This document shows positions 590-50,870 of a stretch of DNA of 64,000 bases, in pieces. The notes beneath the pieces are model-generated. The model was not told where the DNA came from, did not search any database, and saw only the letters and a list, made by a program, of their open reading frames with translations. Location of the stretch: the NCBI GenBank assembly GCA_030062745.1, contig CP099839.1:2237001-2301000 (forward strand). The letters are read 5' to 3'. Made by a program: the position numbers and the translations under genes. Every line of letters begins with the position of its first letter. The stretch's first letter is position 1. This DNA comes from Capitulum mitella. Its lineage: Eukaryota; Arthropoda; Thecostraca; Pollicipedomorpha; Pollicipedidae.

Positions 590-940
590 TGACTATGGTC
601 CGGTGTGACAAGGTGTCCGATGATCTGACACGTTCTGACAATGGGTCCAGTACTGAGACTCGGCGTCACAGTGTGTCCAGTGCTCTGACCCGGCCTGGCA
701 GTGTGCCCGGTGCTCTCTGACCAGAACGGACAGTGTGTCCTGTATTGTGACCAGGCGTGACAGTGTGCCCAGTGCTCTGACTGAGCTGGCGGTGTGTCCA
801 GTGCTCTCGCTAAGCTGGCAGTGTGTCCGCGGCTCTGACCCGGCCTGACTGCGTGCCCGGTGCTCTCTGACCTGAGCTGACGGTGTGTTCTGTACTGTGA
901 CCTGGCCTGGCGGTTTGCCCGGTGCTCTGACCTGAGCTGC
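590..940 (-). repeat. 30-bp tandem array seeded by the EFCC1-like exon 2 donor
   Basis: Read on the minus strand, about 11 diverged copies of a roughly 30-bp unit have the core CAGCTCAG|GTCAGAGCAC and then a CACACTGT-like tail. The first copy is the real exon end plus donor at 930-939. Several later copies keep GGTCAGAG intact, so the intron starts with a series of donor-like sites. Confidence 0.75.
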
Positions 941-1114
941 TGCAGGTTTTCCACAGTAGTCGTGCTCGCCTGAAGCATGGCCTCCCGGTCGGCCAGCTGG
1001 GCGCGAGCCCAGCCCAGCTGGTGCGAGGTACGCTCGTGAGCCAGCCGCTCCATCTCCTGCTGGTGCCGGGCCGCCTGCAGCTCGCTCCGCAGCTGCTCCA
1101 GCTCATCCTGGGCC
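932..1114 (-). CDS. EFCC1: EFCC1-like exon 2
   Basis: It encodes a charged coiled-coil segment beginning R-AQDELEQLRSELQAAR and ending ENLQQL plus two bases. The acceptor AG is at 1115-1116 and the donor GT at 930-931 (CTCAG|GTCAGAG). The frame continues exactly from exon 1. A tandem array starts at this donor. The next exon is not found in 1-590. Confidence 0.6.
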
Positions 1115-23837: not shown

Positions 23838-23910
23838 GACGTGCTCGACGATCGCCAGTTATTGGCGGCCAGTCTGGTCTGGCAGATGACGCAGGGAGGG
23901 CCGGCCAGGG
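23838..23910 (+). CDS. Tentative exon at the head of the 30-bp array
   Basis: After an acceptor-like GCTGTCAG, 24 codons read DVLDDRQLLAASLVWQMTQ and end at CCAGGG|GTCAGA, the first copy of the unit repeated downstream. The proposal rests on analogy with proven junction-seeded arrays in this window and on the protein-like peptide. There is no family match. Confidence 0.18.
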
Positions 23911-25090
23911 GTCAGACGGTACAGGGTGGGCCGCCCAGGGGTCAGACGGTACAGGGCGGGCCTCCCAGGGGTCAGACGGTACAGGGCGGGCCGCTTAAGG
24001 GTCAGACGGTACGTGGCGGGCCGCCCAGGGGTCAGACGGTACAGGGCAAGCCGGCCAGGGGTCAGACGGTACAGGGCAAGCCGGCCAGGGGTCAGACGGT
24101 ACAGGGTGGGCCGCTTAAGTGTCAGACGGTACGTGGCGGGCCGCCCAGGGGTCAGACGGTACAGGGCAAGCCGGCCAGGGGTCAGACGGTACAGGGCAAG
24201 CCGGCCAGGGGTCAGACGGTACAGGGTGGGCCGCTTAAGTGTCAGACGGTACAGGGCGGGCCGCTTAAGGGTCAGACGGTACGTGGCGGGCCGGCCAGGA
24301 GTCAGACGGTACAGGGCGGGCCGCCCAGGGGTCAGACGGTACAGGGCGGGCCTCTTAAGGGTCAGACGGTACAGGGCGGGCCTCCCAGGGGTCAGACGGT
24401 ACAGGGCTGGCCTCTTAAGGGTCAGACGGTACAGGGCGGGCCTCCCAGGGGTCAGACGGTACAGGGCGGGCCGCTTAAGTGTCAGACGGTACAGGGCGGG
24501 CCGCTTAAGGGTCAGACGGTACAGGGCGGGCCTCCCAGGGGTCAGACGGTACAGGGTGGGCCGCTTAAGGGTCAGACGGTACAGGGCGGGCCGCTTAAGG
24601 GTCAGACGGTACAGGGCGGGCCGGCCAGGAGTCAGACGGTACAGGGTGGGCCGCTTAAGGGTCAGACGGTACAGGGCGGGCCGCTTAAGGGTCAGACGGT
24701 ACAGGGCGGGCCGCTTAAGGGTCAGACGGTACGTGGCGGGCCGGCCAGGAGTCAGACGGTACAGGGCGGGCCTCCCAGGGGTCAGACGGTACAGGGTGGG
24801 CCGCTTAAGTGTCAGACGGTACAGGGCGGGCCGCTTAAGGGTCAGACGGTACGTGGCGGGCCGGCCAGGAGTCAGACGGTACAGGGCGGGCCGCCCAGGG
24901 GTCAGACGGTACAGGGCGGGCCACCCAGGGGTCAGACGGTACAGGGCTGGCCTCTTAAGGGTCAGACGGCACGGGGAGGGTCACTCAGGGGTCAGATGGT
25001 ATGGGGCGGGCCACTGAGAGGTCAGATCCTATAAGGTGGGCCAACCAAGGGTCAGATGATGCAGGATAGGCCTCTGAGGGTCAGAGGATG
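23890..25090. repeat. 30-bp minisatellite, about 40 copies
   Basis: A highly regular 30-bp unit (core GGTCAGACGGTACAGGGCGG) has variant halves GCCCAGG, GCTTAAG and GCCAGG mixed along the array. The last three or four copies are diverged. The period is a multiple of three, so all plus frames remain open for over 360 codons; this is not evidence of a protein. Confidence 0.95.
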
Positions 25091-31733: not shown

Positions 31734-31826
31734 ATGCGGCCTCTGCGGAGCGGCCGAAGTCGGGCTCAGCCGTCCCAGTCGGCCGTCGGCACCGTCTGCA
31801 AGTACCCGCACCACTTCTGTCAAAAG
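31734..31826 (+). CDS. KANSL2: KANSL2 exon 1 (coding part)
   Basis: Thirty-one codons, phase 0. They carry the first two zinc cysteines in CKYPHHFC. The donor is CAAAAG|GTACGG. The last bases of this exon with the donor are repeated eight more times in intron 1. The first Met of this frame is used; an earlier non-coding exon is possible. Confidence 0.88.
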
Positions 31827-34800
31827 GTACGGAGCTCAGGGAGTAAGTGCTCGAAATACTTCTGTCGGAACGTACGGAGCACGGGAAGTAGTACCCGCAC
31901 CGCTTCTGCCAAAAGGTACGGAGCTCAGGGAGTAAGTGCTCGAAATACTTCTGTCGGAACGTACGGAGCACGGGAAGTAGTACCCGCACCACTTCTGCCA
32001 GAAGGTACGGAGCTCAGGGAGTAAGTGCTCGAAATACTTCTGTCGGAACGTACGGAGCACGGGAAGTAGTACTCGCACCACTTCTACCAGAAGGTACGGA
32101 GCTCAGGGAGTAAGTGCTCGAAATACTTCTGTCGGAACGTACGGAGCACGGGAAGTAGTACTCGCACCACTTCTACCAGAAGGTACGGAGCTCAGGGAGT
32201 AAGTGCTCGAAATACTTCTGTCGGAACGTACGGAGCACGGGAAGTAGTACTCGCACCACTTCTACCAGAAGGTACGGAGCTCAGGGAGTAAGTGCTCGAA
32301 ATACTTCTGTCGGAACGTACGGAGCACGGGAAGTAGTACTCGCACCACTTCTACCAGAAGGTACGGAGCTCAGGGAGTAAGTGCTCGAAATACTTCTGTC
32401 GGAACGTACGGAGCACGGGAAGTAGTACTCGCACCACTTCTACCAGAAGGTACGGAGCTCAGGGAGTAAGTGCTCGAAATGCTTCTGTCGGAACGTACGG
32501 AGCACGGGAAGTAGTACCCGCACCACTTCTACCAGAAGGTACGGAGCAAAGGGTGGGGTGCTGGACGTCGTCCGGCCACAGACGGGCAGCGTGACGGGCG
32601 GGTCCTCGGCGGCTCGCCACCGGCCGGCTCCGGCGGCGGCCTGGACCGTCCTCCCCAGCTCTTGGTGCGTCCACGCGCGCCGTCCTGAGGCCCGGCCGGC
32701 CGGCCCGCCGGCGTCGTGCCGCGCCGATGCCGGACGTTTTTGCGCGGCGCCGTGCGGCCGGCGGCCTGGTCTGACTCTCAGAGGATTGGGAGGTGGTCAG
32801 CCGGAACCCCGGCCGATTGATGACATCATTAATGGACAGCTCGCTCCCGCTGGTCGGCGCCTCTCTCGGCTCGCATAGCAGAACTTCTCTGAGAGAGAGC
32901 GGGCTCAGTAGCGGTTTGTCTCTGGGGAAAGCCTGTTTTGGGGCGAGAAAAAGTGGACGTAGTAAAGCTTTTGTGTGCTGTACTTTACCGGTAAGTGTCA
33001 CAGGGCGTTTGTGGCGGAGTTGCTGGCGGGGACCGGGATTGAAGCCCGGGACGGCGCCGTTTGCCTTAAGGGATTTCGGGCGCCCACGCTGCTTAAACCG
33101 TTTTGGGTAAATTAGTGGCCAAGCACCGCTTTCTGCATGATATTTCAGCCTTGTCACGGTGGTTACTGAGAACGTTCATGATGTTCCGTCAAGCCTGGTG
33201 CCTGTATTCCGTGTGGCGCTACTGCCGCGATAACATTATTTCGAGCCGCTTCTGAGACACCCTGGTTTGGCTGGCCGGGCGGGGATGTGCGGGCTCCACA
33301 GGGTACCGAGGCTCCCGTCTGCAGGTCGCGGTGCAGGCGAAGGCGGTGTCCGGGCTGTACAGCCCGTTTCTCGTCCGGCGCGCCTGTCCGTGTCCTCCGT
33401 CGGACGGCCAGTCACTCACTCCGCGGCCGGACATTGTTTTGGGCCGACCCCTGTGATGGCTCCAAGGCACGGTTCCCCGCTCTGTGGGCTCAGCAGGCTT
33501 GCTGACTGACTCTCCCCGTCAAGATTCTGAACTCAGTGAGCCTGCTGACTGGCTCCGCGTCCTCAGGAGTGCCTGGAGGGCTTCTCTTTGTGCCAGCTTC
33601 ACATCCTGGAGGATCGCACGGCGCCCTACCGACCCTGCTCCTTCATCTACGGCAACGGCAGAAAGTGCGGCATGCCAGTGTCCAAGAAGGACAGGTAAGA
33701 GACGTGGGCAGTCCATTTGCGGATTGATTGTTTCCTTCCACTGTTGGTCTGTCGGTCCGTCAGAGGCCCTGGAACATTTTGTTTACGGTGACTGGACCAG
33801 GAGAGATGATATGTGCCGCGTGCTGGCGACCTGTCTCGTCCGTGGTCTGTTTGGTCTTTCTTTATTCCCCTCGTATTGGTTGACTCTGCCGGTACGAAGT
33901 GTGCTATGTGCTGGGGTATCCAGCCAGTCCCCGGCCAAATGTGATACGAGACGCTGGTGATAGGTTAAGGCTAACGTCCTCATTTATGATGTGTTACGTT
34001 TTTTTATGTCTTCTGGGCCGTTCCGGTACCCGTGGCGTACTCTCAAATCTGGCCGTTCCCGTGTCTGTCCCTTGTTTGCCCTCCAAACGTCGTGCTGTTC
34101 GGCCGTGTGCGGTGCTGTTCTGCCGTGTGCCGTGCTGCGCCGCTGTGTGCCGTGCTGTTCTGCCGTGTGCCGTGCTGTCCCACCGTGTGCCGTGCTGTCC
34201 GCTGAGTGCCCGCTGTGTGCCGTGCTGTTTGCTGTGTGCCGTGCCGTCCCTCTGTTCGCCGTGCTGGGTCGGTCGTCGGCCCGTGTTACCGCCGTCCTGC
34301 TGAGCGGCCGCCGTGCCGTGCTATGAGCCGTAACGCGGCGGGCGGTGCCAATAGGCCAGCTCGGGCTCGAGCAGTGGGCTCCCCTCAGACATCGGAGGCG
34401 TCGGTGTCGCCGGGGCAGAGGCTGCCGGGACGGCCTGCCCTGCCACACTGGAGTGGACTGTCTGTAATGCATCCTACTGTACTGGACCGCACCGCGCCGG
34501 CCCGTACTGTACTGTACTGTACCATACCATACTGTACCATATCATACTGTAACATACCATACTGTACCATACCACACCATACCATACCATACCATACCAT
34601 AACACAACATGTAATACCATGCCATATCATATCATATCATGCCGTGTCACACCACGTCATGCCATACCATAACATACCACACCATGTTGCAACTGTCATG
34701 CCGTACCATACCATACCATGCCGTACCGTACTGAATTGGAGCGGGTCGTATTGGGCCGTGCCCTGTCGTGCCGTACTCGCCCGGGCCACACCGGGGCGTG

Positions 34801-37800
34801 CCGTACCGCATCCTACCTTACCTTGGTGCCTTTCTGTACCGGACCGCACGGTATCTTACGGTACACCCTATGGTACCCCACCATGTCACATCGTACTCAA
34901 CTGCGCGTCACCGTACCTGGGTGGACCGGGCCCCAGTGCACGAGAGGGGATGTTGTGCATCATACCGAGCCCGGCCGGACCGCGCTCTATAGCGCCCTGT
35001 CGGAGCGGCGGTGCCGGCTGCCACGGGGCAGGGGTCGCGGCCGGAGAAAAAAGGCGTCTGGCTGCGCCTGAAGCGCCGGGCCGCCGCCGACAGACGGGAG
35101 CGATCCCCTGACGGGCCGGCGGCACAGGCGGCCGTCCGACGCGCCGCCAGGAAACGGAATCAGCCTCGGCAGACGGCCTGTTTTGCATGCCGCCCAGCCC
35201 CCTCCCCTTCCCTCAGAGACCTACAGCGGCCGCGGGCGCCAGTTTGTTGCTGTTCGTCTTCGGTCACGTCGTCTGCTGGAACACTTTTTGTTTTGTCCCC
35301 ATTTGTCTTGTTTGTTTTGCTCTTTTCTTTCGAACCTCGACCAGCCGGCTACATGTGCAAACATGTGAGACGGCAATATGCCAGGTGATAAATCTCGTCA
35401 TCTGAGACAGCGGGTCGTTATTTGTTGCTGCGCCATCGAGGGTGATTTCTACGTTTCTGCACATGGCGAGAAAGTTCTGTGAAGGCCATCTCTTTATTAC
35501 GTTCGTTTTAGGTCATGTATGTATGGGCTGTACGCCATAGATTGAATTCAAGCGGAAAAAGTAGTGACATTGGATGGGAGATTGGAAAACTTCCCTTGGA
35601 GTGTGATTATCGATGAAATGTTTCCGCCGGACGTTCGATTGCGACCGGTTCCGAAGGCGGGCTCCGTTCTCGGGGGGTCTCCGCGATGGCAGCTCCTCTA
35701 AAGTATTGGAAACCGAGCCGGGCTTAACGATCATTTTCATTTTGGGCTTGGGTCAGGGGAAATGGCGCATAATTCCAGCGTCGTGCGGCCTCGAAATCTG
35801 CCCAGTTCCCTCTCTGGAATAATTAAATGGACGCTACATCCGAAATGGGAAATTGGAAGTCGTGTCAGTTTAGATGAACGATTGCCGCGGCACGTGCCTT
35901 CAAGAAAAGGCCATAGCTAAGCTTCTGTCGGATTGTGTCACAATTCATTGTGTGCAAATGTTGTAATTCTTAGCATTCAGTGACAGACGTCCAAGGTGGA
36001 GGATGTTGTTCATTGATGATTTTGTCAGCATGTTGAAGAAAAATCATATGACTTGTTATATGACTTGTTGTGGTCACGGTACATTCGTACAGGTTGACAT
36101 GCTAGCAGGTCACGTTTGGACAGACTAAATGATCTCGTTAGAATTTGCTGACCATTGCCGTTGACTATGCGTGGCCATTGTACCTTTTGTCCGCAACGGT
36201 TGGTTGGTTGGTTATTGGGGCTTAGGGGGCGCACCGACTTCAAGGTCATTCGGCGCCCATTTGTCCGCAACGGCACGGTCGTCTTGGACAAAATGGGATA
36301 CAGTTGGACTTCCTGTTGTTTTGTCTTTTGGGTTTTGTTGTTTGCTTAATTTTTGACTATTTTATCTGTTTGTTGATTTCCGTCTTTTCTCCAGGCATAA
36401 TGCACCAATAATTGGGACATGTAGCACGACCATGTCACGGTTCTCGTTAACTGGAAGCCAGATCAGCGTGGGCGCGATTGTTCCGCTGATGCGGCGAGTG
36501 ATCCGTCTCGGTCGGCCGTTGACGGCCGCGGCGTGCCGTTTCAGCCAGCACCAGTGTCTGGAGCACCGGCGGCGTCTGATGCTGGCTCGAGACAGGGCCG
36601 AGCGCACCAAGGAGCCGCCCGAGTCGCTCGACTCGCTCGCCGACCAGCTGCGCCAGTACCAGGCGAACGAGTCATCCCGCTCAGGTCTGTACTGCTGTGC
36701 TGCTGAGAACGGCGGCGCTGTGTAGAGAGGGCTGATCAGGTCCGCACTGCTGAGAACTGCAGCACTGTGTAGAGAGGGCTGATCAGGTCCGCACTGCTGA
36801 GAACTGCAGCACTGTGTAGAGAGGGCTGATCAGGTCCGCACTGCTGAGAACTGCAGCACTGGTCCACAGGGGGCCGCTTACGCCGCCGTCCGGGAGAACT
36901 GTAGATTAGACTGCGGATAGAAGAGAATAGAATAGAGTAGAATAGATTCAAGTAGAGTAAAATAAAACAAAGTAAAATAGAACAAAAATATAAATATAAT
37001 GGATTGCTGATCATGTTTTTAGAATAGATTAGAATAGAATAGAATAGAATAAAATGAAATAAAATAAAATAAAATAAAACAAAGTCAAACAAAATGGAAC
37101 AAAGTAAAATAGAATAAAAATAAAAGCATGATAGGTTGCTGATCAGCTTCGTACTGCTGAGAATTGTTGCACTGGTCTGTAGATCAGTGCAGAGGCTTGC
37201 CAGGTCTGTAGTGCAGAGACCAGTTGCACTGGTCTTCAGAGGGTCGCTCAGGCCCGCCTATCTTCTCTTCTGCATGTGCAGCTGATAACTGCCCTGTAGA
37301 AATGTCTCGAGAGGGCTGTGAGCCGTTTTATGTCGTCCGTGGACGTCAGACGGTGGCAAATGTTTCGGTTATCAGAGCATCCAGGCGCCGTCTGGCAAGG
37401 ATTGAGCCGTGGCGGTCGCCACTGCGGCCGGAAAACGGGCCAGTATTTCTGTCAGCTCTGCTGCGCTCCGTCTCCCCGCCCTCCTGCCGTGCCGTTCTCC
37501 GCCGGACCTCCTCTCCCCCGGCGGTGTCGGTGTTGTTTGGTGCGCCGGCTGTGACCGGTGCGGGACTGAAACGGAGGACTTCTCCATCCGACTTCTGTCC
37601 GGCGCCCGCTCTGCCTTCGGCACGCCGCTCCCCCGGCGGTGCTTTGATCAGGATTTTCCGGAAACTAATCGGTAGGTGTCGCGCGCAGGCCAGCCCGGCC
37701 GTCTCTCCCCGTTAAAAATTCATCCCCGATGGCGGGCCGGCCGGAGTTGGTGCCGCCGCGCGCCGCCGCAGGGCAGGCTGGAATGTGCCGGGATCGGCGT

Positions 37801-40800
37801 GTTATGTGCGACAGGAGAGACGACGGTAATCTGGAAATGGACCAGGAAGTACGAAATCCGGTCTGGCCGCACTTCGAATGTTTGAGTTGTATTGGCACTG
37901 GAAGTGCTCATACAGTCCAGTGCTGTGGTGTCGAGACCATCAAGACAGGGCGACGAAGGAATGCTTCATGTACGTCGTGCATTTTAGAGCGAAGAATTCA
38001 CAGCAGCCTCGTTTGTTTTGCTTTCGTTTGCTTGCTTTGCGTAAATCTTCGTGCGAGACGTGATCTGTCATCCTCATTTGGACGCTTTGTGCGTAGCCAA
38101 AGATGACTCTGTATCAAATGCCAGGCTTGCTCGATGAAGGGCATCGGACGTTTCAAACCTCTGGCTCGGTGTACTCTGATGTTGACTCCTCCCCGCGTAA
38201 GAAATGGTTTGAATGCAGTGCATAAGTTGCCCTCTCGCCGACAGGTGAGGGCTGGGAGCTGGCCCAGCGGCCGCTGCGGTACCGGTCTGACACCGACTCG
38301 GAGGAGGAGGAGGGCGACCGGCTGGTGGAGAGCCCGCTGGAGCCGGCGCTCAGCTCCGACGACGGGCTCAGCGGGCTCAGCGACGACGACGAGGGCGACC
38401 CCCTCCGCCACGCCGGCGTCTACACCGACGAGGAGGTGAGGTCAGGGCACAGGGAGGGTGTCTGGTGAAGATGGGCCGTCTCTGTCCGACACGCCGACGT
38501 CCGCACTAACGAGGAGGTGAGGTCAAGGTATGGAGGAGGGTGTCTGGTGGTGGTGGTGGTGCAGCGTGTCTCTCCTGCATGCCGGCGTCTGGATTCGGGG
38601 AGATAGCACCTGCGAGTGCCTGAGTCGATTTTGTGGTCAACCCGGACGAGAAAGAATGCACCCAGGCCGTTACTGACAGACGGTTTCTGTTCGGCGAGAT
38701 GAGTTAATTGGGCTGAACGAGACGGAAGCACGGAAACACGGCGGAGTACACTGATAGGATGTACTTGTATGAGGAGGACTTACTGAGGAGCATGTCGATC
38801 CTACCTCTCCCGTTTCTGCGCCCGCTCGCTGCCGGCTGGTGCTGGCTATGTCCCAGGGGGCTGTTACAAATGCTGCGTGCTACCCCTGGCGCTCTGTTGG
38901 TTTCTGGTTGTGTACACTACAGTGTCCTGTGTGTACAGACGGCCCGGCTGTCCGTACCCTGGTCGGAACGGAATATGCCTCATGCCGTGGACTCCCCGCC
39001 ACCCCAGGTGATTCGGCTGGCAGAGCAGAGGCTGCGCCGCCTGCAGCGGCTGTACCTGGGCCAGTTCGACCGGCTGAAGCACGTGCTGGAGACGAAGCGG
39101 CGCGCCTACCTCATCGACGTGGCCCGCGAAAAGGAGACAATGAGTGAGTGTCGCGCTAACCGCTGCCGGGGCGGAGCGGTAGCCTGTTAACCATAAGAGC
39201 TGGACAGGTACAGAATAAGCAGGCTTAGGTCAGTATTGTAGACGCGTTGGCCTGATAGCCGACGTATGCGTAGAAAGGACAGCACAGGATGTTATGTTTG
39301 TCGTTAATATTTCTTTTTAAGAGTCGTTTGTAGATTGACATGTAATCAGTAGTGTTGTCATGTAGTCCGATATGTAGTCAGACGTGTTCGGAGCTACGGA
39401 TGAAGTAAAGGCGGGTTTTGTGCTCATGTTATCTCGGTACGCTCGCATTGGCCGTTGCCCGTGATATGGGTAGAAGGCGTGAGTGGTAACACTTGTAAAC
39501 ACCATTGAATGAAGTCATCGAGGAATAACACTGGGCGTGATCTAGGAATAACGCTAGCCTCAACTGCAACGCAGTTTACGTGATATGCTTGTTTTTCATT
39601 ACCCACAGTGTGGCCATTGCTGATCAGATTTAAATGGCAATTTGCGGAGAAATATATGTTTACATGTGCGTAAATATGTAATGTATTTGATTGTGGTCAT
39701 TTCAGAAAATTCTACTCTACGATTGTTTTACTTAGACCTTTACAGAACAGAACTTTCAAAACAGAAGTTCTGGAAGTTCCTCGTGTCATCGTTCCGATGA
39801 CCAGAAAAGAGCGGCAAAATGGTTTGACCGAAATGGTTTCGCCATTTTTCTTGAACATTTCGGAAGGCTTGGCCAAAGAACTCGTCTGAAATATAGCAAT
39901 GATGGCCGAGTTTTCGGAAAAATTCGCGATCATATACGGATTATGGACACCTCCGGGAGTTCACAGAACTTGCCGGTAGGTTTCCAGATGGATGAAAGGT
40001 CAGATACGTCTCTGCGTTTGGGATGGCGCATACAGCTGCATTAGCGCGGGCGGTTTTGCCCGGGCCTGGACAAGAGAGCGGTGATCGCTGGTGGTGCCAG
40101 TCCAGGGGTCCGTGTGTCGGCCGGCCGCCGTGGACCGTGCGGCGGTGACCGGTGCGTGTTGGGAGCGGTGATCGCTGGTGGTGCCGGTCCGGGGTCCGTG
40201 TGTCGGCCGGCCGCCGTGGACCGTGCGGCGGTGACCGGTGCGTGTTGGGAGCGGTGATCGCTGGTGGTGCCAGTCCGGGGTCCGTGTGTCTGCCGGCCGC
40301 CGTGGACCGTGCGGCGGTGACCGGTGCGTGTTGGGAGCGGTGATGGCTGGTGGTGCCAGTCCAGGGTCCGTTGTCGCCCTGGACCCGTGCGGCGGTGACC
40401 GGTGGTGTTGGGAGCGGTGATCGCTGGTGGTGCCAGTGGGTCCGGCCGGCCGCCGTGGACCGTGCGGCGGTGACCGGTGCGTGTTGGGAGCGGTGATGGC
40501 TGGTGGTGCCAGTCCGGGGTCCGTGTGTCGGCCGGCCGCCGTGGACCGTGCGGCGGTGACCGCTGCGTGTTCCGCGCCCCAGAGAGCATCAGCGCCGCGC
40601 CCAGGGAGACGCTGTCGGAGCAGCAGGCCTACGACCAGCTGCGGGCGTACGGCCACTACCAGAAGCCGGCCGGCAAGGACTACCTCTTCTGGCACCACCG
40701 CAACGCGAAGCGCGCCGCCGAGGTACGCGCGCAGCCCGGAGGCGGCCCCGCTGCCTGCTGCCCAATCGTCTGCTCGCTCATTTCCGATGTTGAGTGCAAC

Positions 40801-40828
40801 TGGTGTATGAATGGCATCGGTGGTCTTA

Positions 40829-40882
<54 letters not shown>

Positions 40883-40890
40883 TAAGACCA

Positions 40891-40951
<61 letters not shown>

Positions 40952-43920
40952 CAAAATAGCACTTCTATGTAAATCCAGTACAGTAGGATACAGTACAATA
41001 CCTGTGCGTGGCGCAAGTTCCGTGTAATGCTGTGGGGGTCTGTCTGCCTCTTCTCTCTCCTCACGTGGTGCTCTGGTTCCCGTTACGCCCGCAGCGTGCC
41101 GGTGAGCCCGTAGTGATGAGCCGATCGCGCCTCTGTTACAGGCCGGCGGACCGGCGAGGAGCTCAGCCTCCACGCGGTGCGCGCACGCCGAGGGCCGTGT
41201 GCGCTGCGCGCAGAGGACGATCCCGCTCAGCAAGTACTGCCTGAAGCACATTCTGGAGGTGAGGGCAGTCGCCCGGGCGGGGCACAGAGCCTGTAGACCG
41301 GGCTGTTATTGTCCGTGACGAGGCCGAGCCGGGCGGCCGGTAGCTCCCGGTGAGGAGCAGCGGGAGAAACGCGGACGGGAGAGGAGACGCTGGGAATTGC
41401 GGCGCGGCCGTGCCTGACGTGCCACTTTCGCCGGCAGGTCGTGGCCGTCTGCCGCCAAATGACCCTTCTTGAAATATGGACCCAACTGAATGGTTACATT
41501 GGCCTGCCGCGGAACACAATCACTGAGGAAGTTCGGAGCCGTTATAACGGTCCCATGTCCGCAGAAAAGCTAAAATGTAGAAAGCCTTATGTTTTTCTCT
41601 TTATTATAGAAGACACCCGTTGCGGATGTCAGCTGCAACGGGTGTCTTCAGCAGGTTCTTCAGCGGAGGATAATGGGCTCCTTTGGGCGTGTGTTGCGCT
41701 AAGTGGTGCATAAATCACCCTGGGGGCCGGCTGTGGACCGTCCTTTATTGTCTCGAGAAGGTATGGTGTCCAGTCCGTCATCCCCCTCCCCCCCCCCACT
41801 GCGCTGCGGCCCAGCCACGGGCTCACTGCGTAGCCAGCAGTCTGGTTTGGCGTCGCCTGCAGCATCAGCATCTGCAACAGTTTTCCGATGCATGGTGACT
41901 ACGTAACAGTAATTTTGATAGATGAAACCGGTGCGGAGACACATTGTTTGACCTGCGGTGGTGGACCGATTTTCACTGGGATGTCCACGTTTCGTTCACA
42001 GGTCGCTGGATCAAATGTTGCTGCTCCTTGACTCCTGCTCAAATCTCATGATGTTGAAACGCTCGTTTATATGTCTGTTGTTTGGCGACGCTTCAATTCA
42101 GTGTTCGTAAAGCGTGAGCTGGTCTTGATCGGTTTTCACTGCATCCGTGGTAGTCATCGGGTTATGTGTGGTCTGCTGACGTTACCCGGATGTTGCTCCT
42201 GGTGTTGGTTGTCAGTACCATTACCAGGTGCTGTTGGTGTATGTTGTGTTGGTGATGGCTGATGGCGGTTATTGAGTGTTGGTGTTGTGGGCGGTGTTGG
42301 TTCTCAGTACCAGTACCAGGTGCTGTTGGTGTATGTTATGCTGGTGATGACTGGTGGCGGTCGGTGCTGGTGTTGTTGGTGTATGTTTTGTTGGTGACGA
42401 TTGACAGCGGTCGGTGCTGGTGCGGTGCTGGATGGTGACTGACGGCGGTCGGTGTTGTTGCTTAGGACCAGCACCAGGTGCTGTTGGTGTTTGTTGTCTG
42501 GGTGACGATTGACGGCGGGCATTGTTGGTGCCCGGGACCAGCACCTGGTGCTGTTGGTATGTGATTGGTCCTGGTAGCGACTGACGGCGGTCGGTGTTGG
42601 TGGTCAGGACCAGCACCAGGTGCTGCTAGTATGTGTTGTCCTGGCGGCGACTGACGACGACCGTTGTTGGTGCCGCAGGACCAGCACCAGGTGCTGTTGG
42701 TGTGTGTTGTCCTGGCGGCGACTGACGACGGTCGGCGTTGATGCGCAGGACCAGCACCAGGTGCTGTTCCGGCCGTGCGGCGGCGGCGGCGCCGGTGAGC
42801 CCTGCCAGACGCCGGTGGCCGCGATGCAGGAGCACAGCCGTTGTCAGCTGCACGTCCGACTGCCGGCCGCCACGGACGTCCGCATGCCAGAGGTCAGTGG
42901 CCGGGTCACGGGAGATGTGTCAGATCCGGCTGGGACCAGAGGCCAGTGACCGGGTCAAGGGGCCTGTCCTGTGGTACCTGGCTGGGACCAGAGGTCCAGA
43001 GGTCAGTGGCCGGGTCACGAGAGATGTGTCAGGTCCGGCTGGGACCAGAGGCCAGTGACCGGGTCAATGGGGCCTGTCATGTGGTACCTGGCTGGGACCA
43101 GAGGTCAGGGGCTTGTTGTGTCAGGCCAGGCCAGGACCAGGGGTCCGGGCTGCCGATTGGACCATGGCGCCGCCGGGCGACGCTCATTTTGGGCCCGGTC
43201 ATCTAAATTGGTTTGTATATTTGGCCGTCTACCTGGCTGCGTACCTGTGGATTTGTTCAGATGTATGTGTTTGCCTGTGCATCTGGCTTGATCTGTGTGT
43301 GCCGGTTCGTATTTCGAGGTTGGCTTGACCTGACTGGAGCGTTCCAACCCAGGACGCAGCCTGTAGGTGCGGGACTGACCGTGCTGTGGCTGTGACGTGG
43401 CCTGTCTGCAGCCGTGCCCTGTGGCTGACCGCTACCGCTGCTCCTGCCGCAGCTGCCGGACCCGGTGGAGGCGATGCTGGGCCTGGCCGCCGGCGACGAC
43501 CTGCCGCTGGACGAGACGCAGAGCCGCCTGGTGGCCAGCATCGCCAGCCGGCTGATGGCCTCGGCCGGCGGGCTGGACGGCGCGACGGCAGGCGGCGCCC
43601 CGCAGCCGGCCGCCGGCGGCGCTGCCGGCGCGGCCGGTGACGCCCGGCCCGAGTCGGCCTCCGAAGGTGGACGTGACGGGCGTGACCAGGTCGGCCTCGC
43701 CGTCGGACGCCGGCGCCGCCGGCTCGCCGACCGAGGTGGACGTGGCGGGCGGAGTGGGGTCGCCGTCGGATGGGGGCGGCACGGGCGGCGCCGGGTCCCG
43801 TGTCGCCGGCGGGCGGGGCCGCTCACGGGTACGGGACTGGAGGCCGCCGCCGCCGCCGGAGACATGGTGGAGTACGGGGACGGACAGGAGGCCATGGACA
43901 CGTCAGGGCCCGGAGCGTGA
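31734..43920 (+). CDS. KANSL2: KAT8 regulatory NSL complex subunit 2, nine exons
   Basis: KANSL2 is a nuclear scaffold subunit of the NSL complex with the acetyltransferase KAT8/MOF. Joining 31734-31826, 33567-33694, 36545-36684, 38245-38435, 39008-39143, 40583-40722, 41142-41258, 42749-42892 and 43453-43920 gives 1557 nt, 518 residues plus stop; all junctions are GT-AG and all phases agree. Residues 22-81 and 289-350 form two zf-C3Hc3H modules (C22, C29, C40, H43, C55, C65, C78, H81; C289, C298, C309, H312, C325, C334, C347, H350) with spacing like human. Between them are an acidic stretch, DPLRHAGVYTDEE (172-184, human DPLKHAGVYTAEE) and a coiled coil. INO80D shares the zinc modules but not this middle segment. 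The human protein is about 490 residues. Neither neighbour is functionally related. Confidence 0.95.
31802..32546 (+). repeat. 89-bp tandem array seeded at the KANSL2 exon 1 donor
   Basis: Nine units start at 31802, 31891, 31980, 32069, 32158, 32247, 32336, 32425 and 32514; the last is partial. Each carries GTACCCGCACCACTTCTG-like exon sequence plus AAG|GTACGG. Each unit is itself a dimer of a 44-45-bp monomer (ACTTCTGTC...GTACGGAGC twice), and each also holds GGA|GTAAGT. Confidence 0.95.
32547..33566 (+). other. Rest of KANSL2 intron 1
   Basis: GC-rich intronic DNA ending at the exon 2 acceptor. Open frames in it (for example 32793-33110) have no family match. No element seen. Confidence 0.6.
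33567..33694 (+). CDS. KANSL2: KANSL2 exon 2
   Basis: Acceptor GCGTCCTCAG and donor GGACAG|GTAAGA. It encodes ECLEGFSLCQLHILEDRTAP and on to KCGMPVSKKD, matching human LEGQEFCIKHILEDKNAPF closely. It leaves two bases of a codon. Confidence 0.97.
33695..36544 (+). other. KANSL2 intron 2
   Basis: A 2.85-kb intron between phase-compatible exons. It contains a CCGTGCTGT-type repeat (34085-34260), an ACCAT pentanucleotide satellite (34500-34720) with diverged continuation to about 34900, and a GC-rich patch to about 35250. The remainder is unremarkable. Confidence 0.75.
34500..34720 (+). repeat. (ACCAT)n pentanucleotide microsatellite
   Basis: An imperfect pentamer tract of ACCAT/ACTGT/ATCAT words lies inside KANSL2 intron 2. 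Confidence 0.9.
36545..36684 (+). CDS. KANSL2: KANSL2 exon 3
   Basis: Acceptor GCCGTTTCAG supplies the base that completes Ser74. QHQCLEH then closes the first zinc module at the same spacing as human GVSFCAEH. A charged helix follows. The donor CGCTCAG|GTCTGT leaves one base and is tandemly repeated downstream. Confidence 0.93.
36681..37260 (+). repeat. 47-bp array at the KANSL2 exon 3 donor plus pentanucleotide tract
   Basis: TCAG|GTC words recur at 36681 (the real donor), 36736, 36783 and 36830, with a 47-bp period after a first unit of 55 bp. Each is followed by a TACTGCTG- or GCACTGCTG-like word. An (AATAG/AATAA)n tract at 36918-37110 interrupts, then two or three diverged units resume (37138-37255). 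Confidence 0.9.
37261..38244 (+). other. Rest of KANSL2 intron 3
   Basis: A GC-rich half followed by AT-richer sequence, ending at the exon 4 acceptor. No supported feature. Confidence 0.6.
38245..38435 (+). CDS. KANSL2: KANSL2 exon 4
   Basis: Acceptor CTCGCCGACAG, donor GAGGAG|GTGAGG. It encodes an acidic region (SDTDSEEEEGD) and the KANSL2 signature DPLRHAGVYTDEE. The exon end is partially copied in the next intron. Confidence 0.96.
38407..38600 (+). repeat. 81-88-bp partial duplications of the KANSL2 exon 4 end
   Basis: The exon end and donor (GACGAGGAG|GTGAGGTCA at 38427-38444) recur at 38508-38525 as AACGAGGAG|GTGAGGTCA with upstream exon-like sequence. A third partial copy of GCCGGCGTCT is at 38581. 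GTGTCTGGTG follows both donors. Confidence 0.88.
38601..39007 (+). other. Rest of KANSL2 intron 4
   Basis: No feature beyond the acceptor of exon 5. Confidence 0.6.
39008..39143 (+). CDS. KANSL2: KANSL2 exon 5
   Basis: Acceptor CGCCACCCCAG, donor ATGA|GTGAGT. It encodes the coiled-coil helix with RLQRLYLGQFDRLKHVLETK, aligned to human [20 protein letters not shown]. It leaves one base. Confidence 0.96.
39144..40060 (+). other. KANSL2 intron 5, left part
   Basis: AT-rich intronic DNA with no recognised element. Confidence 0.55.
40060..40570 (+). repeat. 86-bp minisatellite abutting the KANSL2 exon 6 acceptor
   Basis: GTGACCGGTGCGTGTTGGGA recurs at 40145, 40231, 40317, 40395, 40470 and, diverging at its right end, 40556. 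Spacings are 86, 86, 78, 75 and 86. The final copy runs into the exon 6 acceptor. Exon sequence capture is not clear here. Confidence 0.93.
40583..40722 (+). CDS. KANSL2: KANSL2 exon 6
   Basis: Acceptor CGCGCCCCAG, donor GCCGAG|GTACGC. Phase continuity picks this acceptor over the AG two bases later. It continues the helical middle region (TLSEQQAYDQLRAYGHYQKP). A minisatellite ends within about 15 bases of the acceptor. Confidence 0.88.
40816..40950 (+). repeat. (TA)n tracts with a flanking 12-bp inverted repeat
   Basis: GTGGTCTTAGCA and TGCTAAGACCAC flank a (TA)n run (about 40831-40874), and ATCG/CGAT words extend the palindrome. A second (TA)n run follows (40896-40950). It lies in KANSL2 intron 6 and could form a cruciform. 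Confidence 0.88.
41142..41258 (+). CDS. KANSL2: KANSL2 exon 7
   Basis: Acceptor CTCTGTTACAG, donor CTGGAG|GTGAGG. It encodes the first half of the second zinc module: RCAHAEGRVRC then SKYCLKHILE, with the spacing of human RCLAFVDDVRC and RHCLTHICQ. Phase 0 at both ends. Confidence 0.95.
41609..41649 (+). other. Perfect 15-bp hairpin in KANSL2 intron 7
   Basis: GAAGACACCCGTTGC (41609-41623) and GCAACGGGTGTCTTC (41635-41649) are exact reverse complements with an 11-base loop. It is too short for a typical microRNA precursor and not followed by a T-run. Possibly the end of a small inverted-repeat element. Confidence 0.9.
41650..42180 (+). other. KANSL2 intron 7, left part
   Basis: No feature beyond the hairpin just before it. 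Confidence 0.5.
42210..42770 (+). repeat. 70-bp array carrying copies of the KANSL2 exon 8 acceptor and exon start
   Basis: ACCAGGTGCTG-type words recur at 42223, 42315, 42473, 42543 (one mismatch), 42615, 42686 and 42756, the last being the real exon. The four just before it reproduce GACCAGCACCAGGTGCTGTT, the first 20 bases of exon 8, with 0-2 mismatches; three of the four also keep the AG before it. Expected decoy exon starts are 42466, 42536, 42608 and 42679. Confidence 0.93.
42749..42892 (+). CDS. KANSL2: KANSL2 exon 8
   Basis: Acceptor ATGCGCAG, donor CCAGAG|GTCAGT. It begins DQHQVLFRPC (human DTNQVLFKCC) and ends the second zinc module with SRCQLHVRLP. Both borders of this exon have been copied into tandem arrays in the adjoining introns. 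Confidence 0.95.
42887..43130 (+). repeat. 109-bp array at the KANSL2 exon 8 donor
   Basis: CCAGAG|GTCAGTGGCCGGGT occurs at 42887 (real donor at 42893) and again at 42996 (decoy donor at 43002). Half-unit variants CCAGAG|GCCAGTGACC are at 42936 and 43045, and another CCAGAG|GTC at 43098. Confidence 0.92.
43453..43920 (+). CDS. KANSL2: KANSL2 exon 9 (terminal)
   Basis: Acceptor CTCCTGCCGCAG, stop TGA at 43918-43920. The start (LPDPVEAMLGLAAGDDLPLD) and the end (GDMVEYGDGQEAMDTSGPGA) look coding. Residues from about 43667 to 43840 are arginine-rich in this frame, whereas the +2 frame reads like a typical Ser/Asp-rich linker and contains a diverged 69-bp duplication. A small additional intron or a population frame difference is possible; the sum of all exons is nevertheless divisible by three. 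Confidence 0.8.
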   Translation: MPDPVEAMLGLAAGDDLPLDETQSRLVASIASRLMASAGGLDGATAGGAPQPAAGGAAGAAGDARPESASEGGRDGRDQVGLAVGRRRRRLADRGGRGGRSGVAVGWGRHGRRRVPCRRRAGPLTGTGLEAAAAAGDMVEYGDGQEAMDTSGPGA

Positions 43921-43985
43921 AGTCGCTTTGGCAGCGCGTTCGCCCTCGTTCATAATGTTCTGACCAAGCCGTGTGTTTCGTAAAA

Positions 43986-50300: not shown

Positions 50301-50870
50301 GAAAAGTAAAATGTGCAAAAGAAATTAAATCTAAACCATTGTGACAGGGAATGCAAAGGTCGTAAAGAAATGATTTTTCTTTTGGTGAAAACAACATGAC
50401 ACCATGTCAAAAGGTTGTTAAGTTCTAGATCGGCGTAAAGCGTCATGGCCGAACTGGACCATATCGGGCCGGACCGGACTGGCTTCTTAATCTAGTTTTG
50501 TTCTGTTAACTTCATGAAATTGCCGGTCAGGCGAACAGTGGTAGATGTTTCTACAAGTTCGCCACAGATGACACCGTGTTCGAAAGAACTGAGCTGGTCG
50601 CGGACAGTACCAAAAACCTGCAAATCGCCTGACTGGAGTGCAGGGATTTCCGCTTGACCAAAAAGAAGGTGCAGCCATAACCCTAAATACATATGTCATC
50701 ATTACCAACGCTTGCACCGAAACACCTTGAGGGAATCATCATTCAAACAGCCCGTCTCAAGCCCTCCGTCTGGCGAAGATGCGTGAACGCACGTTTATTG
50801 TAAGACTCCAGACTCCTCCGGCCTCACGGCATGTGGGTGGCACACCGTTCTAGCAGTTTGCTCAATCAGT
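47301..50870. other. No recognised gene; GC-rich island at 49370-49770
   Basis: Mostly AT-rich unique DNA. Minus-strand open frames at 48446-48646 and 48658-48864 are protein-like but unrecognised. The GC-rich island contains a GCCGTCGGCGGC tandem run near 49380-49475 and a TTAATCC word. Confidence 0.35.

Follow-up and report, generated by a model that had tools for sequence, protein, structure and literature searches.

Ordinary intronic minisatellites are GC-rich head-to-tail repeats that show higher-order units and homogenisation. Rogers reportedly put forward, in 1989, a model of intron gain through tandem duplication of AGGT segments. In amphioxus, tandem repeats that run across an exon-intron boundary have been described as mirage minisatellites; in that account they occur at donors and acceptors, carry AG/GT in many units, have units between 10 and about 160 bp long and are accompanied by a proposed model of intron gain (PMC3087553). 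The amphioxus genes concerned are Adh3, the globins BflGb6 and BflGb9, troponin C and PGBD5 (PMC3087553, PMC3902484); the second source adds the PGBD5 mirage and cites Adh and troponin C, and both, in the sections available, treat mirages as a cephalochordate feature. Undisturbed mRNA splicing and length instability, whether between haplotypes or somatic, also count among the marks of a mirage. For intron gain through duplicated AGGT segments, the published example is the potato RdRp case (PMC4974935).

The arrays that we found in the barnacle Capitulum mitella have features of each of these systems. Like ordinary intronic minisatellites they are GC-rich head-to-tail intron repeats with higher-order units and homogenisation, but 8 of the 16 arrays in mapped introns take in the splice junction itself. 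They resemble the amphioxus mirages, as far as these are described in the available text, in spanning boundaries at donors and acceptors with AG/GT in many units, and they differ in setting: the amphioxus cases were reported gene by gene in cephalochordates (PMC3087553), whereas here an arthropod has four such junctions in KANSL2 and 11 among 91 junctions in 354 kb, examined with a test of placement. With the AGGT model, as presented in the accessible part of PMC4974935, they share the tandem duplication of DNA with a splice-site-like AG/GT; in contrast to it, the counted barnacle arrays touch one intron end only (0 of 8 reach both). A sequence-only reading of the locus knew of no gene described with so many independent cases; the impression that the kind itself is undescribed has to be given up, as the amphioxus mirages share both the structure and the proposal on intron gain (PMC3087553). 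No paper came up in a full-text literature search on barnacles, minisatellites and introns together, and no junction-spanning repeats in crustaceans were found among the matches listed, judged by titles and abstract openings. Within the literature searched, what appears new is the occurrence in a barnacle, together with the local frequency and the test of placement.

The window is the whole stretch of 64,000 nucleotides that was analysed around KANSL2, and positions below are those of the window unless a contig position or a locus is named. KANSL2 lies at 31734..43921 on the forward strand, where nine exons join into a single open frame:

31734..31826, forward strand: KANSL2 exon 1, coding part, ending CKYPHHFCQK/
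33567..33694, forward strand: KANSL2 exon 2, by open frame and protein alignment
36545..36684, forward strand: KANSL2 exon 3, by open frame and protein alignment
38245..38435, forward strand: KANSL2 exon 4, by open frame and protein alignment
39008..39143, forward strand: KANSL2 exon 5, by open frame and protein alignment
40583..40722, forward strand: KANSL2 exon 6, by open frame and protein alignment
41142..41258, forward strand: KANSL2 exon 7, by open frame and protein alignment
42749..42892, forward strand: KANSL2 exon 8, by open frame and protein alignment
43453..43921, forward strand: KANSL2 last exon (9) as modelled, by open frame

The gene name that had been given from the sequence was correct: the closest protein to the first 411 residues is KANSL2 of Pollicipes pollicipes (76% identity), and identity to the Amphibalanus amphitrite protein is 60%. 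Both protein searches took in these 411 residues, with the C-terminal part of exon 9 excluded. The same residues were aligned with KANSL2 from nine other animals (ten proteins in total), and the model appears sound over exons 1-8. The modelled C-terminal region (43453-43921) looks partly repetitive. The C-terminal part of the last exon may hold a further intron or be read in another frame.

Arrays at the KANSL2 junctions were characterised with Tandem Repeats Finder, blastn self-comparison, local alignment across the junction compared with 300 dinucleotide shuffles, and unit listings:

31801..32547, forward strand: donor-1 array, 89-bp unit, 8.4 copies, the first unit reaching over the real donor into 26 nt of exon 1
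36700..36861, forward strand: donor-3 array, 47-bp unit, starting 15 bp inside the intron and weakly similar to the junction
38404..38589, forward strand: donor-4 duplication, 81-bp offset, 75% identity, reaching over the donor GAG/GTGAGG into 32 nt of exon 4
40076..40571, forward strand: acceptor-6 array, 86-bp unit, ending 11 bp short of exon 6
42201..42768, forward strand: acceptor-8 array, units of ~70 bp, the last reaching over the real acceptor into 20 nt of exon 8 (DQHQVLF)
42887..43106, forward strand: donor-8 array, 109-bp unit in which a half-unit of ~49 bp is more weakly visible, reaching over the donor GAG/GTCAGT into 6 nt of exon 8

Donors 1, 4 and 8 and acceptor 8 fit the definition of a mirage minisatellite, a unit across the exon-intron boundary, and for each of them the score of the crossing alignment was reached by none of 300 dinucleotide shuffles. 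At donor 1, AAG/GTACGG is kept without change in all eight later 89-bp units, and the unit listing resolves each 89-bp unit into two diverged halves of ~44 bp. Copies close to the exon differ and inner copies are more uniform in this one assembly, a gradient that fits ongoing turnover. Donor 4 has a single 81-bp duplication rather than an array and is absent from the Tandem Repeats Finder list. Across the listed blastn self-matches, identity between copies ranges from 66.6 to 98.5%.

Five junctions had originally been placed inside arrays; the four above stand, while donor 3 lies 15 bp before its array. The donor-3 units have only TCAG/GTCYGYACTGCTG in common with the junction (24-mer match 16/24), the best alignments stop short of crossing it, and the junction scores below 28 in the test that required 34. 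Given the 15-bp gap, the 16/24 match and the non-crossing alignments, the donor-3 array is unconfirmed as junction-derived. The acceptor-6 array does abut its junction as had been described, ending 11 bp before the exon; exon sequence was looked for in this array and none was found, and its best alignments do not cross the junction.

Three of the four exonic copies encode residues that do not vary among the ten proteins aligned: the donor-1 copy C29, where exon 1 ends; the donor-4 copy H176, A177, G178, V179, T181 and E184, where exon 4 ends; and the acceptor-8 copy D316, Q319, V320 and L321, where exon 8 begins. Because the copies at donors 1 and 4 and acceptor 8 encode invariant residues, the exon is the old copy and the intronic units are derived, so that copying in KANSL2 ran from exon to intron. 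For these three, this agrees with the direction that the sequence-only reading had proposed; for donor 8, with 6 nt, the argument is weak.

The KANSL2 introns had also been described as made of serial decoy splice sites, and the counts bear this out. The splice dinucleotide is retained in 60 of 70 intronic copies from 13 arrays, a count in which the arrays were already picked, donor 3 and the Cys-loop acceptor are included and the score used to choose copies includes the dinucleotide itself. With the dinucleotide left out of the copy choice (66 copies), retention was above that of inner controls in 9 of the 13 arrays, below it in 3 and equal in 1. The pattern of the amphioxus mirages, in which many but not all units carry AG/GT, is thus reproduced by these 60 of 70 copies. 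Since the dinucleotides are mostly retained, the decoys are tolerated, which is no proof that they are used. The unit lengths of the eight spanning arrays are 89, 81, 70, 109, 30, 35, 78 and 41 bp, and 3 of the 8 are multiples of three, as by chance.

The sample for comparison was 354 kb, one stretch of one chromosome, with 91 splice junctions in eight genes: KANSL2 (16 junctions), a CCDC48/EFCC1-like gene, a Cys-loop channel, a Pax gene, a DJ-1 homologue, a CCDC117-like gene, a PTP-like gene and ABCC5. Protein alignment underlies 57 of the 91 junctions (KANSL2 and ABCC5), and ab initio prediction the other 34. The ab initio exon finder was trained in part on KANSL2, and false exons inside arrays were removed by hand; three of the nine matches in a count over 102 junctions were false exons of this kind. 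Pfam supports the Pax, DJ-1 and Cys-loop genes, with sub-threshold Pfam matches for the CCDC48-like and CCDC117-like genes, and the labels PTP-like and CLK-like are provisional ones based on motifs. ABCC5 junctions were mapped by the Pollicipes and Amphibalanus proteins plus phase; candidate sites were picked by homology and phase, including the matched acceptor 308847 over 308858, and an exon missing from the model probably lies within intron 4 of this gene.

At an alignment score of at least 34, tandem copies cross 11 of the 91 junctions (7 of 75 without KANSL2), comprising 5 donors and 6 acceptors, so that both 5' and 3' boundaries are affected. Those outside KANSL2 are the EFCC1-like donor, the Pax acceptor, two DJ-1 acceptors, the PTP-like acceptor, and a donor and an acceptor of ABCC5. 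At least one junction is copied within 1 kb in 6 of the 7 other multi-exon genes, and in 5 of 7 under the stricter score-34 test. KANSL2 had been singled out as an exceptional gene, a view that these 5 of 7 other mapped genes contradict. The EFCC1-like case lies in the window:

602..939, reverse strand: EFCC1-like donor array, ~30-bp units with 8 exon nt, CAGCTCAG/GTCAGAG...
932..1114, reverse strand: CCDC48/EFCC1-like exon, ab initio, Pfam score just below the cut-off

At the ABCC5 donor (contig position 305742, L026:1742), a 41-bp array repeats ~25 nt of exon and 16 nt of intron, the exon part being 34 nt by blastn, and the ABCC5 acceptor at 308847 (L026:4847) has 78-bp units with 36 exon nt. 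The DJ-1 acceptor at 264300 (array L012:284-822) has 16 copies of a ~35-bp unit, 13 of which keep the AG; a second DJ-1 acceptor with a junction-spanning array lies at 267994 (L012:3994). Upstream of the paired-domain exon of the Pax gene, the exon start (QAGVNQLGGVFVNGRPLP) recurs twice in tandem (contig 175672-175850, L003:1672-1850). By eye, the Pax acceptor and its pyrimidine tract look like an altered exon copy (CCGCTSCCSSAG/GTCAGG). The PTP-like acceptor at 294272 gave a mixed result, with non-crossing best alignments in the shuffle test and a score of 44 with a shorter query. Upstream of the Cys-loop acceptor at 50690 (L018:690) are diverged units of ~32 bp, apparent copies of the exon start; this borderline case (1 of 300 shuffles, score 28) was left out of the 11 crossed junctions. 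The EFCC1-like acceptor at 94407 was excluded, as its short match is above 300 of 300 shuffles but scores below 28 in the score-34 test.

Two further arrays of C-rich units (L018:6175-6660 and L026:5887-6461) end 6-8 bp before acceptors, as if the pre-acceptor tract had been multiplied. Elsewhere in the window, a 30-bp array of ~38 copies (23892-25026) leaves three of the six frames open for 373-454 codons.

Placement was assessed by array counts on 16 minisatellites in 41 mapped introns, under a null in which the founding unit is placed uniformly or with GC weighting. To arrive at the 16, a pair of KANSL2 arrays was dropped whose units are 5 bp long and which lie away from junctions. The Pax acceptor, the DJ-1 acceptor 267994, the PTP-like acceptor 294272 and the Cys-loop acceptor 50690 stand outside this count, either because the intron is not bounded at both ends or because blastn called no array. 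Eight of the 16 arrays span a junction, against 1.68 expected under uniform placement (P = 1.3e-5) and 2.26 with GC weighting (P = 2e-4); without KANSL2, 4 of 9 do so where 0.62 to 1.02 would be expected (P = 6e-4 to 6e-3). If arrays within 15 bp of a junction are included, 12 of 16 qualify against 2.3-3.3 expected, and 6 of 9 against 0.9-1.6 without KANSL2. These stronger P values use unit lengths set by hand from lag profiles, several first lengths having been overestimated; the script was overruled for KANSL2 intron 7 (70, not 92) and ABCC5 intron 7 (33, not 26). With the first unit estimates, 8 of 18 arrays span a junction against 2.23 under uniform placement (P = 3.7e-4), and 4 of 9 against 0.92 without KANSL2 (P = 0.005); GC weighting raises the expectation to 3.24 (P = 0.006) and, without KANSL2, to 1.55 against 4 observed (P = 0.042), the weakest version. 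As the neighbouring genes were unselected and the excess persists without KANSL2, the claim on placement is supported locally beyond KANSL2. The 33 arrays outside mapped introns have a mean flanking GC of 58%, against 50% in the background. We regard the excess of arrays at junctions as genuine but moderate, with GC accounting for some of it.

Counting positions instead of arrays gives another picture. Within KANSL2, 21% of sampled positions have a match of 19/24 within 3 kb, and 4 repeated junctions of 16 are therefore no excess by share of positions. Over all genes, at a score of at least 34, copies cross 11 of 91 junctions, 10 of 91 points at +60, 11 of 91 at +120 and 6-7 of 91 at +180 to +360, with 0-1 of 91 in exon interiors 30-60 nt inside; the series without KANSL2 is 7 of 75 at the junction, 5 at +60, 6 at +120 and 2-4 deeper in the intron. 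Other thresholds gave similar values (at 30, 11 at the junction vs 12 at +60 and 12 at +120; at 40, 9 vs 10 and 8), and a looser test showed a plateau, with 13 of 91 at the junction vs 12-16 of 91 at offsets from +20 to +300. Per position, junctions are repeated no more than the adjoining 120 bp of intron. The two measures of what is more than chance thus disagree, the array count showing an excess that the share of positions does not. The expectation of the sequence-only reading, that array starts fall nearer to junctions than chance, accordingly holds in this local test for array counts, above both the uniform and the GC-weighted null, but not for the flat density per position.

The pattern could come from chance overlap alone, if many minisatellites arise in GC-rich DNA, exons are GC-rich and some arrays straddle their edges with no preference for junctions. 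The profile that stays flat from the junction into the nearby intron speaks for this, as do the 58% flanking GC of the 33 arrays outside mapped introns vs the 50% background, the 21% of sampled KANSL2 positions that are repeated, and the rise of the expected spanning count from 1.68 to 2.26 of 16 under GC weighting. However, the excess survives that weighting (8 vs 2.26, P = 2e-4; without KANSL2 4 of 9 vs 1.02, P = 6e-3), if less strongly when the first unit estimates are used (P = 0.006 against 3.24 expected and, leaving KANSL2 out, P = 0.042 against 1.55). By reasoning, uniform seeding followed by growth also predicts a coverage at junctions below that of the interior, and the observed coverage is not below it. 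We therefore consider chance overlap unlikely as the whole account; GC content explains only part of the over-representation at junctions.

Selection for competing or regulatory splice sites, acting in alternative splicing, U1 recruitment or intron retention, would agree with the dinucleotide present in 60 of 70 intronic copies and with the eight donor-1 copies that are identical across nine donor positions. Homogenisation can explain such retention, which exceeds that of inner controls in just 9 of 13 arrays, and multiples of three among unit lengths are at chance level (3 of 8), so that we hold functional copies to be very improbable. We would give still less credence to the idea that the arrays mark introns recently born from duplicated AG/GT exon segments: AG/GT does occur in many units, the Pax acceptor and pyrimidine tract look exon-derived by eye, and the same model has been published for amphioxus globins (PMC3087553), but not one of the eight spanning arrays extends across its intron from one junction to the other, and non-repeated sequence remains beside the arrays in those introns. 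Repeats made or multiplied by the assembler seem hardly credible. Tandem arrays are error-prone in assembly, yet the copies differ by up to about a third (66.6-98.5% identity in the listed self-matches), unit lengths vary between genes and unrelated genes show the same pattern.

The analysis shows directly how the arrays are built, which way they were copied, that they recur in neighbouring genes and that more of them lie at junctions than uniform or GC-weighted placement predicts; we think it probable that these results reflect mirage minisatellites, that is, near-neutral tandem duplications that straddle junctions and then expand into the intron. Short tandem duplications (units of 30-109 bp at junctions) would arise often in GC-rich gene DNA. 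When one falls across a junction, the exon-proximal splice site would stay usable, and the extra copy would land in the intron; because the message need not change, we infer that such a duplication is nearly neutral. The decoys would normally be skipped. The array would then grow and homogenise inside the intron, presumably by slippage or perhaps by unequal exchange, while selection on the protein would fix the exonic copy as an anchor and the introns would fill with copies of donors or acceptors. Beyond the mirage reading, we put forward only tentatively, and with more doubt than belief, that junctions are hot spots of minisatellite birth in this barnacle lineage and that introns grow from their ends by copying of exon edges.

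The ~12% of 91 sampled arthropod junctions suggests that junction-spanning minisatellites recur across distant animals. Rows of identical donors or acceptors are natural arrays for testing how the exon-proximal copy gets selected, and they offer a setting in which the lengthening of introns, the shifting of junctions and the gain of introns by duplication can be sought directly. For annotators, the decoys are a possible source of faulty gene models. If junctions are indeed hot spots, about one junction in ten would carry serial, functional-looking decoys, which would amount to a natural experiment on site choice by the spliceosome and would provide standing raw material for moved junctions and new introns.
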